Shown here piece after piece: positions 6,922 to 44,692 of a stretch of 64,000 bases of DNA. The notes beneath the pieces were generated by a model, which saw nothing but the letters and a program-made list of their open reading frames with translations, searched no databases and was not told the origin of the DNA. Each line of letters starts with the position of its first letter. The first letter of the stretch is position 1. This DNA is from an uncultured Deferribacteraceae bacterium (GTDB taxonomy: Bacteria; Chrysiogenota; Deferribacteres; Deferribacterales; Mucispirillaceae). Location: assembly GCA_947039395.1 (NCBI GenBank), contig CAMQYS010000006.1, forward strand, positions 1 through 64,000, read 5' to 3'. A program made the translations under genes and the position numbers.

Positions 6922-8025
6922 ATGAGAGTAGAGAGTTATGAGACAAAAATGGCTAACCTTATTTTAAAGTATTCTTTAAATATAGTAAAAGATGATATAG
7001 TTTTAATAAAGTCAGAAACAGTCGGTGAACCGCTTGTTCGTGAGTTTGTAAAAGAGATAATTAAATTAGGTGCACATCCGATTGTACGTTTTCATATCCC
7101 TGAACATAAAGAGTATTTAGTTAAATACGGTAAAGAATCGCAGTTGACATTTTTACCATACTTTGAGTTACAACAGACAGAGACTATTACAGCTTATATA
7201 TATATAGATTGTTTATCTAATGCTAGATCGTTAAGTAGATCAGATCCTAAGAAATTAGCGATGATACAAAAGACGGGAATAAAACTTAGAGAGATTATGA
7301 ATAAGCGTGAAGCTGAAGGTAAATTTAGATGGTGTATCTGTCCATATCCTACAAACTCTATGGCACAAGATGCTGATATGAGCTTTACTGATTACTCTGA
7401 TTTTGTATTTGAGTCTTGTAAATTAAATGATGCAAATCCAGTTTTATCGTGGAAAAAAGTTGAGGCTGAACAGAAAAAGATAGTTAAAAAATTAACAGGT
7501 AGTAAAGAATTGTTAATAGTTGGTAAAGATACAGAGTTAAAGTTATCGGTTAAAGATAGATTATGGATCAACTGTTGTGGACATAGAAATATGCCTGATG
7601 GCGAAGTGTTTACATCTCCAATTGAAACATCAGCAGAGGGAGAAATTCTGTTTGATATCCCAACAACTTATAACGGAGTAGAGGCTGAAGATGTTAGGTT
7701 GACTTTTAAGAACGGAATAATCGTTAACTCATCTGCTAAGAAGGGAGAGACGTTCTTGAAGAGAATGATAGAGATGGATGAGGGTTCAAATAAAGTTGGC
7801 GAGATAGCATTCGGTTTGAATGATTGTATCAAGGATGCTTCAAGAAATATATTATTTGATGAGAAGATCGGACGATCTATGCATTTAGCGATAGGTTCTA
7901 GTTACGAAGAGGCGTTAGGTAAGAATAAATCGGCATTGCATTGGGATTTAATAAAGGATATGAGAAAGGGCAGTAAAGTTTATATCGACGGCAAGATGAT
8001 ATATAAAGATGGAAAATTTATTTAA
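6922..8025 (+). CDS. M29 family aminopeptidase, 367 aa
   Basis: Matches the AmpS/PepS/aminopeptidase T family of two-metal enzymes that remove N-terminal residues from peptides in the cytoplasm. Recognisable metal-site blocks are NMPDGEVFTSP with SAEGEI, GEIAFGLN, MHLAIG and ALHWD. Length is close to the usual 370-410 residues. The start is set at 6922, where TTGGAG lies six bases upstream; an in-frame ATG 33 bases earlier lacks a site. It stands alone, divergent from the peptide-type ABC ATPase gene, and ends at a terminator at 8158. With iadA (25876) it points to peptide use, an inference. Confidence 0.9.
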   Translation: MRVESYETKMANLILKYSLNIVKDDIVLIKSETVGEPLVREFVKEIIKLGAHPIVRFHIPEHKEYLVKYGKESQLTFLPYFELQQTETITAYIYIDCLSNARSLSRSDPKKLAMIQKTGIKLREIMNKREAEGKFRWCICPYPTNSMAQDADMSFTDYSDFVFESCKLNDANPVLSWKKVEAEQKKIVKKLTGSKELLIVGKDTELKLSVKDRLWINCCGHRNMPDGEVFTSPIETSAEGEILFDIPTTYNGVEAEDVRLTFKNGIIVNSSAKKGETFLKRMIEMDEGSNKVGEIAFGLNDCIKDASRNILFDEKIGRSMHLAIGSSYEEALGKNKSALHWDLIKDMRKGSKVYIDGKMIYKDGKFI

Positions 8026-8140
8026 GGTTTTTACGGCTAAGGTTTTACACTTTTAAGATTTAAGATTTAAGATTTTATGGTTAAGGTTTTAATTGTTTAA
8101 GATTTTAACGGATTGGTTTTTGGTTTAGATTGATTTTTAA
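8023..8140. repeat. Imperfect TAAGRTTTTA tandem repeat
   Basis: From the stop codon onward the sequence repeats TAAGGTTTTA or TAAGATTTTA at intervals of about 14-16 bases, with two 7-base TAAGATT units in the middle. This looks like replication-slippage expansion in a spacer. It lies between the aminopeptidase stop and its terminator. No coding potential. Confidence 0.7.
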
Positions 8141-35771: not shown

Positions 35772-36446
35772 CTAAACTATACATATAGAAAAACAATCTA
35801 CTTTTTTAACGCCAGCAGATTTTAATGTTATAGCACACTCTTCAATAGTGCTTCCTGTTGTAATAATATCATCAATGAGCAGTACAGAATTATATTTAGA
35901 TATAGAGGTATATAGAAATGCATCACGAATATTATCAGATCTTTTATTTCTATCTAATTTAAATTGATATGGAGTATATCTAGTTCTCTTCAACGCATTA
36001 TCTAGCTTAATATTATTTTGATCAGCGATATGTTTTGCTATAATATCAGTTGGATGAGACCACCTTCTAAACTTACGATAGAAGTGTGAAGGTACAGGAA
36101 TAATTGCATCGTACTCATTAATATTTACATCTGATAAATCTATCAGATGAGGTAGTAGGTTTTTTACACGAAAAGCGTATTGAAATTTTATGTTTGCTAA
36201 AATATCTTTGATAGGATAAGCGTAACTATAGTTAGAGTATATTCTTTTAAGATTCTTTTTATTTTGTTTGCATACAATACATATATTATCAACTAAAGAG
36301 AGTGATGAGTTACATTTTGTACATGTTGATGTAAGTTTAGTAAGCTTGCTATAACAACTATCACATAGTGTATGATAGTTGTTAGTTACAGCTTTACATG
36401 CAGAACATTTATAACCAAGAATTAGTTCATCTTCAATTTTTCTCAT
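35772..36446 (-). CDS. comF: ComF family protein, 224 aa
   Basis: Zinc-finger N-terminus with four CxxC pairs (CSAC, CDSC, CTKC, CIVC), then a phosphoribosyltransferase fold with the PRPP-binding motif VLLIDDIITTGSTI near the C-terminus. ComF proteins are linked to DNA uptake and, in several bacteria, to recombination of incoming DNA. The start is set at the ATG at 36446; a GTG lies one codon upstream. Follows gpmI by about 48 bases in the same direction. Confidence 0.87.
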   Translation of the reverse strand: MRKIEDELILGYKCSACKAVTNNYHTLCDSCYSKLTKLTSTCTKCNSSLSLVDNICIVCKQNKKNLKRIYSNYSYAYPIKDILANIKFQYAFRVKNLLPHLIDLSDVNINEYDAIIPVPSHFYRKFRRWSHPTDIIAKHIADQNNIKLDNALKRTRYTPYQFKLDRNKRSDNIRDAFLYTSISKYNSVLLIDDIITTGSTIEECAITLKSAGVKKVDCFSICIV

Positions 36447-36494
36447 CACTATCTTTTAAATCCTATTATATATTGAGTAGATATTATTAATATA

Positions 36495-38012
36495 TTATTT
36501 ATCAATTAATGAGTTTCCAGTCATCTCTTTTGGTTGTGATAATCCTAATACTTCTAAAATAGTTGGAGCGATATCGGCTAATTTTCCACCGTTGATATTT
36601 AATCTACATTTATAGTTATGAATTATAAACGGAACTTTATTAGTCGTATGTGCCGTATGGGGTTGATTATTTTCATAATCCCACATACATTCAGAGTTAC
36701 CATGATCAGCGGTAAGCATTAACACAGCGTCCATATCATCAACGATTTTCACAACACGTCCTAAAGCTGTATCAACTGCTTGACAAGCTTTTATAATCGC
36801 ATCTTGAACACCAGTATGTCCAACCATATCAGGGTTTGCAAAATTCATTACAACTAAATCTATATCGCCTTTTCTAAAATGTTCTTCAAACTTATTAGTA
36901 ATTTCTGCTATACTCATTTCAGGTTTAAGATCGTATGTTGCAACATCTCTAGGTGATGGTATAAGTTCTCTAATTTCATTTAGAAATGGTTCTTCTATTC
37001 CGCTATTAAAGAAATATGTAACATGAGGATATTTTTCTGTTTCAGTAATTCGTAGCTGTTTCAATCCATTGTTACTTACAACTTTAGCTAAAATATTGTC
37101 GTAAAATTCAGACTGATATGCAACAGGAAGATTAAGAGTTTTATCGTACTCCGTTAATGTTAAAATATTTAACATAGGTTTGCTTCCTCTATCAAACTCT
37201 GTGAAATCATCATCAACCATAACATCGGTTAATTGTCTTGCTCTATCTGCTCTAAAATTCATCATGAAAACAGAATCACCATCTTTAATTTTACCATCAA
37301 CCGAGTCTATTATAGTTGGGAGAATAAACTCATCTGTATCAGCATTATTTTCAATAGCAGTGATCGGATTTTTAGCAGTTACACCTTTACCATTTCTAAG
37401 TGCGTCCCAAGCTTTTTCAACTCTATCCCATCTTTTATCTCTATCCATAGCGTAATATCTTCCGATAATAGTAGCGATCTGTCCGTATTTTATTTCGTTA
37501 AGAAAGTTTTGCATATCGGCTATATAGCTTATTCCAGATGTTGGAGGCGTATCACGTCCATCAGTAAAACAGTGAATGTATAACTCTTTAACACCTCTCT
37601 CTTTTGCAATTTCTATAATAGCTTTAAAATGATCAATATGAGAGTGTACACCACCGTCAGAGAGCAGTCCAAGTAGATGCACTCTACCAGAGTTTTGAGT
37701 AGCATTATCAAAAAATAAATTTATCTCTTTATTCTCTTTAATTTTCCCATCATGTACATCGTTAGAAATTCTTAAAAGATCTTGATAGATAACTCTACCA
37801 GCACCGATATTCATATGTCCAACTTCCGAGTTCCCCATCTGTCCTTTAGGCAATCCAACCTCTTCACCTGATGCATCAAGTAGGGTATGTTCATTGTTAT
37901 ATAATAGTTTAATATAGTTTTGAGGATTAGAAAGAACTGTCCCATTATGTTCTTCTTCTAAACGATATCCCCATCCATCTAATATTAGTAGCACGACTCT
38001 TTTTTTATCCAT
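36495..38012 (-). CDS. gpmI: 2,3-bisphosphoglycerate-independent phosphoglycerate mutase, 505 aa
   Basis: Glycolytic enzyme interconverting 3- and 2-phosphoglycerate with two manganese ions. Blocks typical of the alkaline-phosphatase superfamily are complete: LLILDGWGYR, the phosphoserine loop GQMGNSEVGHMNIGAGR, FTDGRDTPP, and MLTADHGNSECM with HTTNKVPFI. Length is normal. AAGGTGG precedes the ATG. Divergent from the dcw cluster. Confidence 0.97.
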   Translation of the reverse strand: MDKKRVVLLILDGWGYRLEEEHNGTVLSNPQNYIKLLYNNEHTLLDASGEEVGLPKGQMGNSEVGHMNIGAGRVIYQDLLRISNDVHDGKIKENKEINLFFDNATQNSGRVHLLGLLSDGGVHSHIDHFKAIIEIAKERGVKELYIHCFTDGRDTPPTSGISYIADMQNFLNEIKYGQIATIIGRYYAMDRDKRWDRVEKAWDALRNGKGVTAKNPITAIENNADTDEFILPTIIDSVDGKIKDGDSVFMMNFRADRARQLTDVMVDDDFTEFDRGSKPMLNILTLTEYDKTLNLPVAYQSEFYDNILAKVVSNNGLKQLRITETEKYPHVTYFFNSGIEEPFLNEIRELIPSPRDVATYDLKPEMSIAEITNKFEEHFRKGDIDLVVMNFANPDMVGHTGVQDAIIKACQAVDTALGRVVKIVDDMDAVLMLTADHGNSECMWDYENNQPHTAHTTNKVPFIIHNYKCRLNINGGKLADIAPTILEVLGLSQPKEMTGNSLIDK

Positions 38013-38199
38013 TGTTAGTGACCACCTTGAGTATATTTATATCTAGTCTATATATGCTATCAGATGTATTATTTATAGTAAAGTTAATAATGAGAGAAGT
38101 TTTTATCAAAAAAAATAATCTTAAATTTTATTTCAATTTAAGAAAATAAAATAATGATGTTGGTAGATATATAGATTTAGTGTAGAGGTTAAATATCTC

Positions 38200-38227
38200 T
38201 TGACAAAAGGCAAGAATAACGTATAAA
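38200..38227 (+). promoter_or_regulatory. Sigma-70-type promoter of the dcw cluster
   Basis: TTGACA (38200-38205) and TATAAA (38222-38227) with a 16-base spacer. Transcription would start near 38234, inside the row of TGG boxes that follows, giving an untranslated leader of about 250 bases before mraZ. Confidence 0.8.
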
Positions 38228-38272
38228 TGGGTTAAAGAGGCATGTGGTGGACTGATTTGGCGTAAAGTGGCT
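38228..38272 (+). promoter_or_regulatory. Candidate MraZ operator: five boxes at 10-bp period
   Basis: TGGGT (38228), AGGCA (38238), TGGAC (38248), TGGCG (38258) and TGGCT (38268) follow each other at exactly 10 bases. MraZ is known in Escherichia coli and Neisseria to bind direct TGGGN repeats spaced by five bases at its own promoter. Here the boxes start at the base after the -10 hexamer and cover the transcription start, ideal for repression. That MraZ binds here is an inference. Confidence 0.7.
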
Positions 38273-38311
38273 TAATTGTAGTAATTATATAGAAAATAGC
38301 TAGAAATAAAC

Positions 38312-38416
38312 TTGTAACTATTAAATTTCTAGAGATTAAGCTTAGAATAATTAGTTTTATAATAGTTAGACTTATAGCAATTAATCTTATTACAGTTGGA
38401 TTTACGATAATAGTTA
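38312..38416. repeat. 15-bp-period degenerate tandem repeat in the dcw leader
   Basis: Seven consecutive 15-mers can be laid out: TTGTAACTATTAAAT, TTCTAGAGATTAAGC, TTAGAATAATTAGTT, TTATAATAGTTAGAC, TTATAGCAATTAATC, TTATTACAGTTGGAT and TTACGATAATAGTTA. Each opens with TT and shares a central A/T pattern. It lies in the predicted untranslated leader between the MraZ-like boxes and mraZ. Confidence 0.6.
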
Positions 38417-38483
38417 TACGGTTTACAGATATTATAAAGAATTAACATAGGTTAAAGTATTATAGATCACTTTTGGAGTAAGA

Positions 38484-38939
38484 ATGGGATTTAAGGGCGA
38501 GTATCTTAATAAATTTGATGATTCAGGCAGAATATCTTTACCTGCTAAGATGCGTGATGAACTTCGTTCTAAAAACTTAGGAGATACTCTTGTGGCTTAT
38601 TATACTCCACAATCTAAATGTTTGAAATTGATGACTAAGTTGAATTTTGAAAAGGTTGAACGTTCTCATATAGATAATCCTCCTACTAATAGGAGTGATG
38701 TAGATATTTATAGATATATTTTTGCATCATCAATGGATGTTGATATAAGTGCATCAGGAAGAATAACTATTACACCAAAACATAGAAAGAAAGCCAATTT
38801 AAGTGATGAGTGTTATATCATAGGTGTGAATGATCAGATACAGTTATGGAATAAACAAGAGTGGGAGACGGAGTCTCAACGTATAGAGTCAGAGTTATCG
38901 GATGAGGGTTTAAGAATTTCTTCTCATCTCATATTTTAA
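38484..38939 (+). CDS. mraZ: Transcriptional regulator MraZ, 151 aa
   Basis: Two tandem SpoVT/AbrB-like MraZ domains: GEYLNKFDDSGRISLPAKMR at the N-terminus and SMDVDISASGRITITPKHRK in the second half. MraZ forms rings that bind direct repeats at its own promoter and restrains the division cluster. TTTGGAG precedes the ATG. First gene of the cluster, nine bases before rsmH. Confidence 0.95.
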   Translation: MGFKGEYLNKFDDSGRISLPAKMRDELRSKNLGDTLVAYYTPQSKCLKLMTKLNFEKVERSHIDNPPTNRSDVDIYRYIFASSMDVDISASGRITITPKHRKKANLSDECYIIGVNDQIQLWNKQEWETESQRIESELSDEGLRISSHLIF

Positions 38940-38948
38940 GTAGGTATT

Positions 38949-39878
38949 ATGCATACGCCAGTTATGTTATTAGAGTTAGTAGATGGTGTTTTCACAGATC
39001 CAGATGGTATATATATTGATTGTACTGGTGGTGGTGGAAGTCATAGTTTTGAACTATCAAAGCGTTTATCTGATAAAGGTTCTCTAATAATTTTAGATAA
39101 AGATTTAGATGCAGTTGATAGACTTAGAGATCGTTTTAAAGATTGTAAAAATGTGAAAATAATTCATTCATCGTTCGCAGATATATTACAGATTGTAGAA
39201 GAAGATAATATTTTAGGTAACGTTACTGGAATTATTGCAGATTTTGGAACATCATCATATCAGTTAAAGGATTCAGAGCGTGGTTTCTCATTTAGATTAG
39301 AAGGCGATATTGATATGAGAATGGATAGAACGCAAGAATTTAGAGCATCTGATGTAGTGAACAGTTACGATGAACATGAGATATTTAAAATCATAATTAA
39401 ATATGGTGAAGAGAAATTTGCAAGAAGTATAGCTAGAAACATAGTGAAGTATAGAGAGGGCAAGAGGCTTGACACGACCTTAGAACTTTCTCAAATTATA
39501 GCTAATTCAATTCCTAAGAAATTTCATAAGTATGGTATCTCTCCATCTACAAAAACATTCCAGGCGTTAAGGATATACGTTAATAGGGAGCTGGAAGATA
39601 TTGAGACATTGTTAAGTTCTGTATCAAGTATATTAAAGATATCTGGTAGGTTTGGAGCTATTTCATTTCATTCATTGGAGGATAGGATTGTAAAGAAATC
39701 ATTTATTGAATATGCGAAAAACTGTACATGTCCACCACTTTTGCCGATGTGTATATGTAATAGGGTTCCAGAGTTTAAAATACTCACTAGAAAGGCTGTT
39801 GTACCGTCAATCCTTGAGGTTACAGTAAATCCATTATCTAGAAGTGCAAAGTTAAGAGTTGCGGAGAAGATTAATTGA
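38949..39878 (+). CDS. rsmH: 16S rRNA (cytosine-1402 N4)-methyltransferase RsmH, 309 aa
   Basis: SAM-dependent methyltransferase of 16S rRNA. Family blocks: HTPVMLLELVDGV, IDCTGGGGSHS (SAM loop), IIADFGTSSYQLKDSERGFS, DMRMDRTQ, and SFHSLEDRIVK near the end. Usual place after mraZ. Also called MraW. Confidence 0.96.
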   Translation: MHTPVMLLELVDGVFTDPDGIYIDCTGGGGSHSFELSKRLSDKGSLIILDKDLDAVDRLRDRFKDCKNVKIIHSSFADILQIVEEDNILGNVTGIIADFGTSSYQLKDSERGFSFRLEGDIDMRMDRTQEFRASDVVNSYDEHEIFKIIIKYGEEKFARSIARNIVKYREGKRLDTTLELSQIIANSIPKKFHKYGISPSTKTFQALRIYVNRELEDIETLLSSVSSILKISGRFGAISFHSLEDRIVKKSFIEYAKNCTCPPLLPMCICNRVPEFKILTRKAVVPSILEVTVNPLSRSAKLRVAEKIN

Positions 39879-39888
39879 GGGAAGCGAT

Positions 39889-40215
39889 ATGAAACATATA
39901 CCTATGTATGAAGAAAGTAGTGAAAAAAGTCTACAGTTGTTTAGTTTTGTACAACCGATTTTTATAGTAACTTTTATGTTAGCGATTATTTTTGTTTCAA
40001 CACTTATTATTGTTAGAAATAAATGTATTACGATCGGTTATGAGATATCAGAATTATCACAAGAGTTAGAAAGTAGATCGTTGGTTGCAGAACGCTTATC
40101 TTTAGAATATTCTAAAATAGCAAGAAATGAAATTCTAATTGAAAAAGGGTTAAAAGCTGGATTTATGCTAGTAGATACGGGTAGGGTATTTTATGTTCAA
40201 AGAGACAAAAATTAG
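39889..40215 (+). CDS. ftsL: Cell-division protein FtsL, 108 aa
   Basis: Small bitopic protein: a short cytoplasmic start, one membrane helix (about 22-42, PIFIVTFMLAIIFVSTLIIV) and a periplasmic coiled coil (ISELSQELESRSLVAERLSL). FtsL activates FtsWI in the divisome. The family is poorly conserved, so the name rests on topology and position between rsmH and ftsI. The start is the ATG at 39889 after GAGGGAAG; an earlier ATG would lie inside rsmH. Overlaps ftsI by 23 bases. Confidence 0.78.
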   Translation: MKHIPMYEESSEKSLQLFSFVQPIFIVTFMLAIIFVSTLIIVRNKCITIGYEISELSQELESRSLVAERLSLEYSKIARNEILIEKGLKAGFMLVDTGRVFYVQRDKN

Positions 40216-41878
40216 TTCATTTTTCTCTGTATTGGCAGTATTTTTTACTGTGCTTGTTGTTGCACGACTTTTTCATCTTCAAGTTATTGAAGGGGCTAGA
40301 TATAAAAGTTTTGTTAAGTCTCAGGTAGAATCAAAGATAGAGACGACAAGAAATAGAGGAACAATTCTTGATAGAGATGGCGAGGTATTAGCGCAGAATA
40401 AGGTTGTCGGATCTATCTATGCTTTTAGAAAGAATATCAAAAACATGGATACCTTTATCAATCAGTTAGAGGTAAACGGTATTGATGTTTCAAAACGAGT
40501 TCGTGATCAGTTAAAAAACAGTGATGGTTTTGTATGGATTGAACGACATCTTGATTTAGAGTTAGCAGAGTACCTTAAAAGCAATATAAGTGGTTTAGAA
40601 TATTATAAGGAAGAGGCAAGATATTATCCTGAAGGTAGCAGTATGTCAAACCTTCTTGGTTTTACTGGAATTGATAATCAAGGAAGAGGTGGAATAGAGT
40701 ACACTCTTGATTCTGAACTTGCAGGCGATCCAGTTACAGTTGTTTCAATTAAAGACTCTAGAGGTAAATTAATTTTATTTGATGATAAATCAGATGCTAT
40801 TCTTCCTGATAGTTCTATTGATCTCACAATTTCATCAAAGCTTCAAGCAGGTGTTGAGTCTATTTTACGTAATGGTGCAAAAAATTACGGTGCAAAAAAT
40901 GGTACTGCTATTGCCTTAGATGTAAAGACTGGAAATGTTATTTTTGCTGCAAATGTAAAAGCTTTTAATCCACATGATTATTCAAGTAAAGAGAGATCTT
41001 ACTATAACAATATGCCTTTTACATATTTATTTGAACCAGGATCGATATTTAAAACTATTCTTTTTGCATTTATGCAGGATAAACTTTTGATAGATCATCA
41101 GAAGAAGTATAATACAAGTAAGATTATAAATTTAGGTGGGTTTACTTATACTGATACAATTTATCACCCTTCATTAACTCCTGAAAATATATATAAATAT
41201 TCATCTAATATAGGCATTGCGAAGATGGTAGAGAGTATTAATAAAGATGCATACCATAAATTTATAGTAAATGCTGGTTTTGGAGATAAGACTGGTATAT
41301 ATGGATTAAGAGAAGAATCTGGGTTAGTTAAACCACCTAAAAAATGGTCAAAAAATAGTAAAACATCTATATCTATCGGTTATGAGTTGCTTGTAACACC
41401 TATACAGATAGTGAATTTTTATGCAGCTATTGGAAACAATGGAGTAATAAATACTCCTAAACTTATTGATAAAGTTGAAGTTAAATCAAGGATTGTTAAT
41501 CCTAAGGTTGAAAGTCGTAGAATAATGAGTGAGTCAACATCTGATTATTTATTATCACTTATGGTTAAAACTGTTAAAACAGGAACTGGTAAAAATGCAC
41601 GTAGTAGCATAGTAGATATAGCGGGCAAAACGGGAACATCTAAAAAGTATGATCCGAAACTTAAAAGATATTCTGATGAAAATTATATTGCAACATTTGC
41701 AGGTGTTTTTCCATCTAATAATCCACAGATAGCGATGATTGTTGTTTATGATTCGCCATCAACATCGATTTATGGTGGTGCAACATCGGCACATATATTT
41801 AAAGAGATTGCAGAGTATCTTGCAATAGAGTTTAATTTATTAAATAAAAGTAGGGTGATTATAGCTGATGCTAATTAA
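40193..41878 (+). CDS. ftsI: Septal penicillin-binding protein FtsI, 561 aa
   Basis: Class B transpeptidase that cross-links septal peptidoglycan together with FtsW. One N-terminal membrane helix, pedestal domain with RGTILDRDGEVLA, then the transpeptidase with catalytic S284 (GSIFK), SSN at 337-339 and KTGT at 479-482. No PASTA domain. Overlaps ftsL at its 5' end and murE by 11 bases at its 3' end. Confidence 0.95.
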   Translation: MFKETKISSFFSVLAVFFTVLVVARLFHLQVIEGARYKSFVKSQVESKIETTRNRGTILDRDGEVLAQNKVVGSIYAFRKNIKNMDTFINQLEVNGIDVSKRVRDQLKNSDGFVWIERHLDLELAEYLKSNISGLEYYKEEARYYPEGSSMSNLLGFTGIDNQGRGGIEYTLDSELAGDPVTVVSIKDSRGKLILFDDKSDAILPDSSIDLTISSKLQAGVESILRNGAKNYGAKNGTAIALDVKTGNVIFAANVKAFNPHDYSSKERSYYNNMPFTYLFEPGSIFKTILFAFMQDKLLIDHQKKYNTSKIINLGGFTYTDTIYHPSLTPENIYKYSSNIGIAKMVESINKDAYHKFIVNAGFGDKTGIYGLREESGLVKPPKKWSKNSKTSISIGYELLVTPIQIVNFYAAIGNNGVINTPKLIDKVEVKSRIVNPKVESRRIMSESTSDYLLSLMVKTVKTGTGKNARSSIVDIAGKTGTSKKYDPKLKRYSDENYIATFAGVFPSNNPQIAMIVVYDSPSTSIYGGATSAHIFKEIAEYLAIEFNLLNKSRVIIADAN

Positions 41879-43343
41879 AGATTTGATTGAGACTCTTTCT
41901 GTTAAAGAGTTTCATCTAGACGAAAAAGTTTTAAATAAGAATATTGATTCATTCAGTCACCATATTGATGATGTAGTTAATCATATTGATGATAAATTAG
42001 TTTTTTTTGCATATAAAGGCAATAATTTTGATTCAACGGATAAAGCTATCGAACTTTACAATAGTGGTAAAATATCTGTTATTATAACAGATAGAGTGCT
42101 TGATAAGAGCATTGCACATATAGTGGTTGATGATGTTAGAATAGCGTTGACTTTAGCATCAATTGCATTTTTTGATAATAAATTAGATAGATTAAAAAAA
42201 GTGGCAATAACAGGTACAAACGGAAAAACTACAACATCAATGTTAATAGGATCTATATTAGCTTATGCTAAAAATAAAATTGTAACAATAGGTACGAACG
42301 GTATTTTTATAGATAGTAAAGTTTACGATAATAACACTACAACTCCTAGCGGATATGATTTTGTCAAATTCGCTTCATTAGGTGTTGATACAGGGTGTAG
42401 TTATTTAGTATCAGAGGTATCATCACATGCACTTCATCAAAACCGTTTAAAAGGTATAATGTTTGATGTTGCTGTGTTTACAAACTTAACGGGTGATCAT
42501 CTTGATTATCATAAAGATATGGATAATTATTTTGATACTAAAGCTAGATTATTTAACGATAATTATTCAGATATAAAAGTTATAAATATAACATCAATGT
42601 ACGGTGAAAAACTTTTATCAAAACTTGATAGATCAAAATGTATTACCTACGCTGTAGGTAAAGAAGCAGATGTATATTCTATAGATTATAATATATGTGT
42701 TGATGGGCTTGATGCTACTGTATTCATTCATGGTACAAAATATAATATTAAATCAAAATTGATAGGCGAGTATAATTTAGAGAATATTTTAGCATCTATA
42801 GCTGCTACAAAATCGTTATCTATAGATGATGAAAGTATCATAAAAGGCATTGAATCCTTAGATGCAATTGATGGTAGATTGCAGAGAGTACAAGCTAAGG
42901 ACTTTACTGTGTTTATTGATTACGCTCATACTGATGATGCGTTAGAAAATGTTTTAAATGCGATAAATTCTATTGCAACTAGAAGAATTATAACAGTCTT
43001 CGGTTGTGGTGGAGATAGAGATAGAAGTAAACGCTCAAGAATGGCAAAAGTTGCTGAAAGATTATCTAGTATAGTTATATTAACATCCGATAACCCTAGA
43101 TCAGAAGATCCTATGAGTATAATCGAGGATATGTTAAGTGAGAGTCCTGAAAGATCATCATTTATAATCGAAGTTAATAGAACAAGTGCTATAAAGAAAG
43201 CGATACTGTTAGCTGATAAAAATGACATTATTTTAATAGCTGGTAAGGGGCATGAAAAGTATCAGATTATTAAAGATGAAAAAATGATATTTGATGATAT
43301 TGAAGAGACTCTTATGTATTTAAAAGAGTATAATAAATGTTAA
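41868..43343 (+). CDS. murE: UDP-MurNAc-tripeptide synthetase MurE, 491 aa
   Basis: Adds the third stem-peptide residue. ATP loop TGTNGKTTT (115-123) and the substrate motif DNPR at 408-411, which marks enzymes using meso-diaminopimelate, so this organism probably has DAP-type peptidoglycan. Overlaps ftsI by 11 and murF by 7 bases. Confidence 0.95.
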   Translation: MLIKDLIETLSVKEFHLDEKVLNKNIDSFSHHIDDVVNHIDDKLVFFAYKGNNFDSTDKAIELYNSGKISVIITDRVLDKSIAHIVVDDVRIALTLASIAFFDNKLDRLKKVAITGTNGKTTTSMLIGSILAYAKNKIVTIGTNGIFIDSKVYDNNTTTPSGYDFVKFASLGVDTGCSYLVSEVSSHALHQNRLKGIMFDVAVFTNLTGDHLDYHKDMDNYFDTKARLFNDNYSDIKVINITSMYGEKLLSKLDRSKCITYAVGKEADVYSIDYNICVDGLDATVFIHGTKYNIKSKLIGEYNLENILASIAATKSLSIDDESIIKGIESLDAIDGRLQRVQAKDFTVFIDYAHTDDALENVLNAINSIATRRIITVFGCGGDRDRSKRSRMAKVAERLSSIVILTSDNPRSEDPMSIIEDMLSESPERSSFIIEVNRTSAIKKAILLADKNDIILIAGKGHEKYQIIKDEKMIFDDIEETLMYLKEYNKC

Positions 43344-44692
43344 TAAGTGAGTTTATTAAATCACTCCCACATATTATATCAAGTGATATTTTTGATGATA
43401 TAGAGATCGGAGATATTGTTATAGACTCACGTAAAGTTAAACTACATGATGTGTTTGTTGCTATAAAAGGCGATAACCATGATGCTAACTTATTTACTAA
43501 AGATGTAATAGATAGAAACGCATCGTTACTGATTTTATCTGATAAGAAAGTTTACGATAGTTTAAATTGTAATAAGATTTTAGTTGATAATGGAAAAGAG
43601 TTTTTAATTGAAACTGCTAAAGTTTTTTTTGATAGATTTAATGGTAAGAAGATTTTAATAACAGGATCATTTGGTAAAACTAGCAGTAAAGAGTTGTTGA
43701 AATGTATACTCTCTACTAAGTATAAAGTATACGCAACTGAAGGTAATTATAATAATGAGTTGGGAGTTTCAATAACTGGTATAAATTTAGATATGAACGC
43801 AGATTTTATTATTGTTGAAGCGGGCAGTAACGCTATGGGTGAGATTAAGTTGCTATCAAAAATGGTTAAGCCAGATATTGTAGTTATCACAAATATAGGG
43901 CATGCTCATATAGGAAGATTTGGAAGTTATGAGAGTATTGTTCACGAAAAACTATCAGCAGTAGATGGGTTGCTTGAGAACGGTTCTCTGTTTTTACCGA
44001 GTGAGTTTTATAATAATGTGCAATATAAAAATGGATTGGATATATATACATTTGGTGATAAAGACTCTAATATTTCATTAGATGAAATTAGTTCAGTTGA
44101 TAAGGGTATAACATTTAAGGTATCAACTAGCGATAAGGAGTATAGACTAAATCATATCTATCATCATATAGCGTATAACTGTTTGCCGTTAATATTATTA
44201 GCAGAGAAGGTTGGTTTATCATACGATGAAATTTATAGAGGGATAGAGTTATACTCTCCTATCAATGGTAGAGGTAATATGCTTTATAGTGATGAGTTAG
44301 TAGTAGTTGATGATACTTATAACGCAGGATTTGAGTCGGTTATATCAACTGTTAATAGTATTGCTAATATTAAAGATAGAAGTAAGCATGTTATTTTAGG
44401 CGAGATGGGTGAGATAGATGGATATGAGCAAGAGCTTTATAGTAAGATTATCTCTTTAGTTACGATATACAGCGATATACAGTTCTATTTTTTAGGAGAG
44501 AGTTTTAGCACATTTATTGATGATAGTATAAAAAAAGCTTCTAATATGATGTTGTATAGTTCAAGAGATAGGTTATTAGATGCCTTATTAAAGATAGATA
44601 AAAATGAGAAGGGTATTTTACTATTTAAAGCATCAAGAAGTAAGAGGTTTGATACACTTGTGAGCGAACTGATAGAGAAGAGAAAAAAATAA
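43337..44692 (+). CDS. murF: UDP-MurNAc-tripeptide:D-Ala-D-Ala ligase MurF, 451 aa
   Basis: Cytoplasmic ligase that adds D-Ala-D-Ala to complete the pentapeptide. Mur ligase domains with N-terminal ..IVIDSRKVKLHDVFVAIKG, ATP loop ITGSFGKTSSKE (unusual F in place of the common N), EGNYNNELGVSIT, and VVDDTYNAGFESV. Start overlaps the murE stop. Confidence 0.93.
   Translation: MLISEFIKSLPHIISSDIFDDIEIGDIVIDSRKVKLHDVFVAIKGDNHDANLFTKDVIDRNASLLILSDKKVYDSLNCNKILVDNGKEFLIETAKVFFDRFNGKKILITGSFGKTSSKELLKCILSTKYKVYATEGNYNNELGVSITGINLDMNADFIIVEAGSNAMGEIKLLSKMVKPDIVVITNIGHAHIGRFGSYESIVHEKLSAVDGLLENGSLFLPSEFYNNVQYKNGLDIYTFGDKDSNISLDEISSVDKGITFKVSTSDKEYRLNHIYHHIAYNCLPLILLAEKVGLSYDEIYRGIELYSPINGRGNMLYSDELVVVDDTYNAGFESVISTVNSIANIKDRSKHVILGEMGEIDGYEQELYSKIISLVTIYSDIQFYFLGESFSTFIDDSIKKASNMMLYSSRDRLLDALLKIDKNEKGILLFKASRSKRFDTLVSELIEKRKK

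Follow-up and report, generated by a model that had tools for sequence, protein, structure and literature searches.

We identified, in an uncultured Deferribacteraceae bacterium, a promoter and five-slot array of boxes upstream of mraZ, the first gene of a standard dcw start. The close matches belong to assemblies of uncultured Deferribacteraceae. We are highly confident that these elements form an MraZ operator of five boxes through which mraZ and the dcw genes would be under negative autoregulation. Across related genomes the array is conserved together with mraZ, and it lies almost exclusively in front of this gene. Binding of MraZ to this array, and the resulting repression, are inferred by analogy with E. 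coli, Burkholderia and Mollicutes. The array was found in a window of 64,000 nt, which designates here the whole stretch of DNA that was analysed. The features of the region are as follows.

38200–38205, plus strand: −35 element TTGACA, read directly; TTGAC[AGT] in the congeners and most relatives.
38222–38227, plus strand: −10 element TATAAA, abutting box 1; same sequence in the congeners G001 and G002.
38228–38237, plus strand: MraZ box 1, TGGGTTAAAG, 5.4 bits in the box model built from relatives; TGG retained in G001 and G002.
38238–38247, plus strand: MraZ box 2, AGGCATGTGG, 1.6 bits; AGGCA retained in the congeners, TGGCAT in most genomes of sister genera.
38248–38257, plus strand: MraZ box 3, TGGACTGATT, weak, −1.1 bits; CGT in G001, TGT in G002 and the sister genera.
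38258–38267, plus strand: MraZ box 4, TGGCGTAAAG, 2.7 bits; TGGC retained in the congeners.
38268–38277, plus strand: MraZ box 5, TGGCTTAATT, 7.8 bits; TGGCTTAAT identical across three congeners.
38278–38470, plus strand: genus-specific untranslated leader with decayed period-15 tandem repeats, supported by autocorrelation and by the break in the congener alignment.
38475–38478, plus strand: Shine-Dalgarno-like GGAG of mraZ, read directly; TTTTGGAG kept in the congeners.
38484–38939, plus strand: mraZ, 151 aa, presumed repressor of the boxes (PF02381, 67.4 bits; matches to solved structures).
38949–44692, plus strand: rsmH/mraW, a short ftsL-like ORF, ftsI, murE and murF, the first dcw genes under the promoter (the names ftsL, murE and murF come from position and inspection of the translations).

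The preliminary description of this DNA had reported TTGACA, 16 bases and TATAAA (38200–38227), followed without a gap by five boxes in 10-bp steps, four starting with TGG and one with AGG, and the sequence reads exactly so: from 38228 to 38277, the slots start with TGG, AGG, TGG, TGG and TGG. The array presents direct repeats with a TGG/GTG core at a 10-bp period and lies downstream of the −10 element of the promoter of the first dcw gene, as is characteristic of MraZ operators. Box 1 is expected to overlap the transcription start. Box 3 is considered weak because its score is no better than background in the model derived from relatives. A consensus promoter scan of the window did not list the promoter, since the scan demands a T at the last position of the −10 element. 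Taken by itself the promoter appears unremarkable, and the support for it comes mainly from its conservation among relatives.

The protein encoded by mraZ matches PF02381 in two stretches, whose loops DDSGRISLP and ISASGRITIT present the two-domain SGR-loop arrangement of MraZ, and it matches by sequence the solved MraZ structures 1n0e, 9qlr, 9sx6 and 9qlg. MraZ proteins with solved structures form rings. In family f1, the second loop reads I-S/N-x-S-G-R (ISASGR/INSSGR) and lacks the Asp of the I-D-x-x-G-R form (IDKQGR) found in most others; we counted this change against the MraZ operator reading, as it might alter ring contacts. In the mechanism that we propose, a housekeeping promoter is followed by five in-phase 10-bp boxes, which would span about +1 to about +43. 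Because all the boxes lie on one helix face, the subunits of an MraZ ring could contact adjacent boxes jointly. Bound MraZ would then block promoter melting or escape, such that mraZ and the downstream genes would be held down by negative autoregulation.

We further compared the regions upstream of mraZ in relatives. The relatives search covered 40 genomes (15 genera, 8 families), 38 of which were found to carry the gene, and upstream regions were compared for 35 genomes, including that of the window. The 34 relatives share a common plan: a promoter, then usually three to six boxes of the form TG[G/T]NATAAAA at a 10-bp period, placed immediately 3′ of the −10 element as in the window. On the mraZ strand of the 35 genomes, distances between pairs of TG[G/T] peak at 10, 20, 30 and 40 bp (89, 65, 50 and 31 pairs, respectively) and counts are low at most other distances; no peak was observed on the opposite strand. 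The lags neighbouring the peaks (9, 11, 19, 21, etc.) and lag 5 are modestly raised, and part of this rise would be explained by overlaps of the TTGG/TGTG type and by the one-base shift seen in family f6. The preliminary description had proposed an MraZ-type site and had named the lack of 10-bp boxes upstream of mraZ in close relatives as an outcome that would speak against it. The boxes are present in these relatives with the expected spacing, directly 3′ of the −10 element, which supports this reading of the site.

We built a model of the box (10 positions, 125 sites, window left out; consensus TG[G/T][C/T]ATAAAA), and this model ranks the array at 38228 first in the window with 16.3 bits, relative to −5.5 bits for the next best place, a gap of more than 20 bits. 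By a simple rule, each genome presents two to six slots, mostly four or five, such that an array of five is typical for this order. The fewest slots were observed in family f6, whose exact phase is disrupted by the one-base shift, and in genome G024. From these comparisons, the array of the window is very probably an MraZ operator, a known kind of switch, with the number of slots that is usual in this order.

The genus of the window differs from its relatives downstream of the boxes. The last box lies 206 bp from the mraZ start in the window, and the distances for three species of the genus are 206, 212 and 315 bp; almost every other genus has its last box no more than about 30 bp from the start of mraZ, the boxes abutting or even including the start codon, and G037 has a distance of 82 bp. 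In ten genomes (G016, G018, G020, G021, G023, G025, G027, G028, G030 and G033), the ATG is located inside the last box (TGTTATGAAA and others), the start codons having been chosen by alignment. We also observed that in several Deferribacterota families (loci L011, L015, L016, L018, L019 and others) the start codon of mraZ lies within the last box and that no Shine-Dalgarno sequence is visible by eye. How translation of these mRNAs is initiated when operator and start codon are merged in this way is a small, testable question. Inside the leader of the window, autocorrelation reaches 0.52, 0.47 and 0.46 at lags 15, 30 and 45, respectively, values as high being reached in 0 of 300 shuffles, and the leader of G001 carries 31-bp repeats. 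The leader evolves fast: it is not alignable between congeners, although the DNA flanking it is 84–87% identical. A reading of the leader as a genome-wide repeat family was rejected, since the best match elsewhere has an E of 0.06 and a second copy is therefore not convincing.

One elaboration of these observations is that the operator of Deferribacterota was merged with the translation start of mraZ and that a repeat-driven leader separated them in this genus, adding a control of the dcw genes by leader RNA. There is a precedent for long leaders: Rhodobacter sphaeroides has an extended dcw 5′ leader of 268 nt with the sRNA UpsM (PMC5089854), and the window likewise presents a long untranslated stretch ahead of mraZ. 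Unlike the UpsM leader, however, that of the window shows no terminator, no Rfam match and no unusual fold, and its sequence is not conserved between congeners. Indeed, no terminator-like site, including a Rho-independent terminator as in UpsM, was found in 38000–38560; a search of 36000–39000 against Rfam gave no match; and a structured leader RNA was rejected, the predicted fold being no better than that of shuffles (z = 0.74). We consider this elaboration unlikely. For the leader itself we favour a neutral expansion driven by repeats, and the probability that it has a regulatory role is low.

A scenario of decay is also quite unlikely: in this genus the array would be a relic, in which the control by MraZ has weakened with the insertion of the leader and only some boxes are still functional. 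The boxes of this genus do score below those of sister genera, and box 3 is near background and has been lost in one congener (CGT in G001); the lower scores and this loss were counted against the MraZ operator reading. However, three congeners retain the promoter together with boxes 1, 4 and 5, next to a leader that does not align: the alignment of the congeners covers the promoter and the array and breaks down right after them.

The places where the boxes occur also support the reading as an MraZ operator. We searched the genome of the window and its relatives (41 whole genomes) for a three-box pattern, allowing one mismatch. This search yielded 24 matches, 23 of which are immediately upstream of mraZ; the remaining one is in genome G031 (C47), on a different contig from mraZ, which in this genome starts at a contig edge. 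The reversed control pattern gave 0 matches across the 41 genomes. The three-box pattern is strict: with matches in only 18 genomes, more than half of the mraZ sites escape it, and weaker sites may exist at other places. With a separate pattern taken from the array of the window, the sole exact match in its own genome is the site itself, and a single unrelated match was found with two mismatches. These results suggest that MraZ in Deferribacterota controls chiefly one site, its own operon.

Operators of this kind are known in other bacteria, and this is the ground on which we count the array among them. The E. coli mraZ operator (MraZ boxes) was reportedly described by Eraso et al. in 2014 (as cited in PMC8475190 and PMC7761207). 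In E. coli K-12, the slots downstream of the −10 element of mraZ are TGGGAAATTG, TGGGGCAAAG, TGGGAATAAG and GGGTGAGG, three with TGG and one with GGG. Both operators present TGG-core direct repeats at an exact 10-bp period, just 3′ of the −10 element of the dcw promoter and upstream of mraZ; however, E. coli has three TGGGN slots and a GGG slot where the window has five less G-rich ones, the first of which touches the −10 element, and in the window about 200 nt of leader precede mraZ. In Burkholderia cenocepacia, the fragment bound by MraZ in gel shifts contains four repeats of 7 nt with 3-nt spacers, which overlap the start site (PMC7761207). This PmraBc site shares with the window the 10-bp period and the position 3′ of the −10 element, over the transcription start, but it has four repeats and its binding was observed by gel shift, whereas the array of the window is known from its sequence. 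The MraZ of Mollicutes is described as binding direct repeats AAAGTG[T/G] (Fisunov et al. 2016, as cited in PMC8475190). Relative to this motif as cited, box 5 of the window and its preceding bases give an exact match, AAAGTGG, likewise among direct repeats in an mraZ promoter, and the remaining boxes match the 7-mer partially. The statement of the preliminary description that known operators usually have fewer boxes holds only in part: E. coli has three TGG slots and a GGG slot and B. cenocepacia has four repeats, and within the present order five boxes are ordinary. Our literature search gave no MraZ study for Deferribacterota, and the present results extend the MraZ operator to this phylum with the box consensus TG[G/T]NATAAAA.

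Alternatively, the boxes could be the binding array of a regulator other than MraZ, under whose control the dcw operon happens to lie. Compared with the TGGGN of E. coli, the boxes TG[G/T]NATAAAA contain less G, and the binding of MraZ is here a prediction; yet the period, the strand, the position and the TGG core all agree with known MraZ operators, and the array was found almost only with mraZ across the searched genomes, which makes this alternative very improbable.

The motif TGGN7TGGN7TGG occurs once in the window, relative to a mean of 0.12 in shuffles. For at least four of five TGG in phase, the expectation over both strands is about 0.007 occurrences per 64 kb; such an array was found in 0 of 60 simulated windows, and the window has one. 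Although 10 bp is near the helical repeat, an origin of the periodicity by chance or composition (A+T-rich DNA, helical-phase bias) can be dismissed with near certainty given this expectation, the lack of a peak on the opposite strand and of a comparable place in the window, and it is refuted by the conservation.

Other features of the window are unrelated to this operator. Intergenic tandem arrays are located at 1–113 and 8020–8108, with periods of 29/58 and 15/30/44, respectively; the array at 1–113 was considered as a wide repeat family and rejected, with just one further copy in the genome. The segment 20575–25875 (~5.3 kb) is missing at this place in both congeners; it presents a low coding density, with small ORFs without clear Pfam families and one weak ankyrin match. 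Finally, the segment 29264–35496 (LolA-like protein, ABC transporter and FtsX/MacB permeases) is 96.4% identical to G001, relative to 78–87% for its neighbours, which suggests a recent exchange between species.
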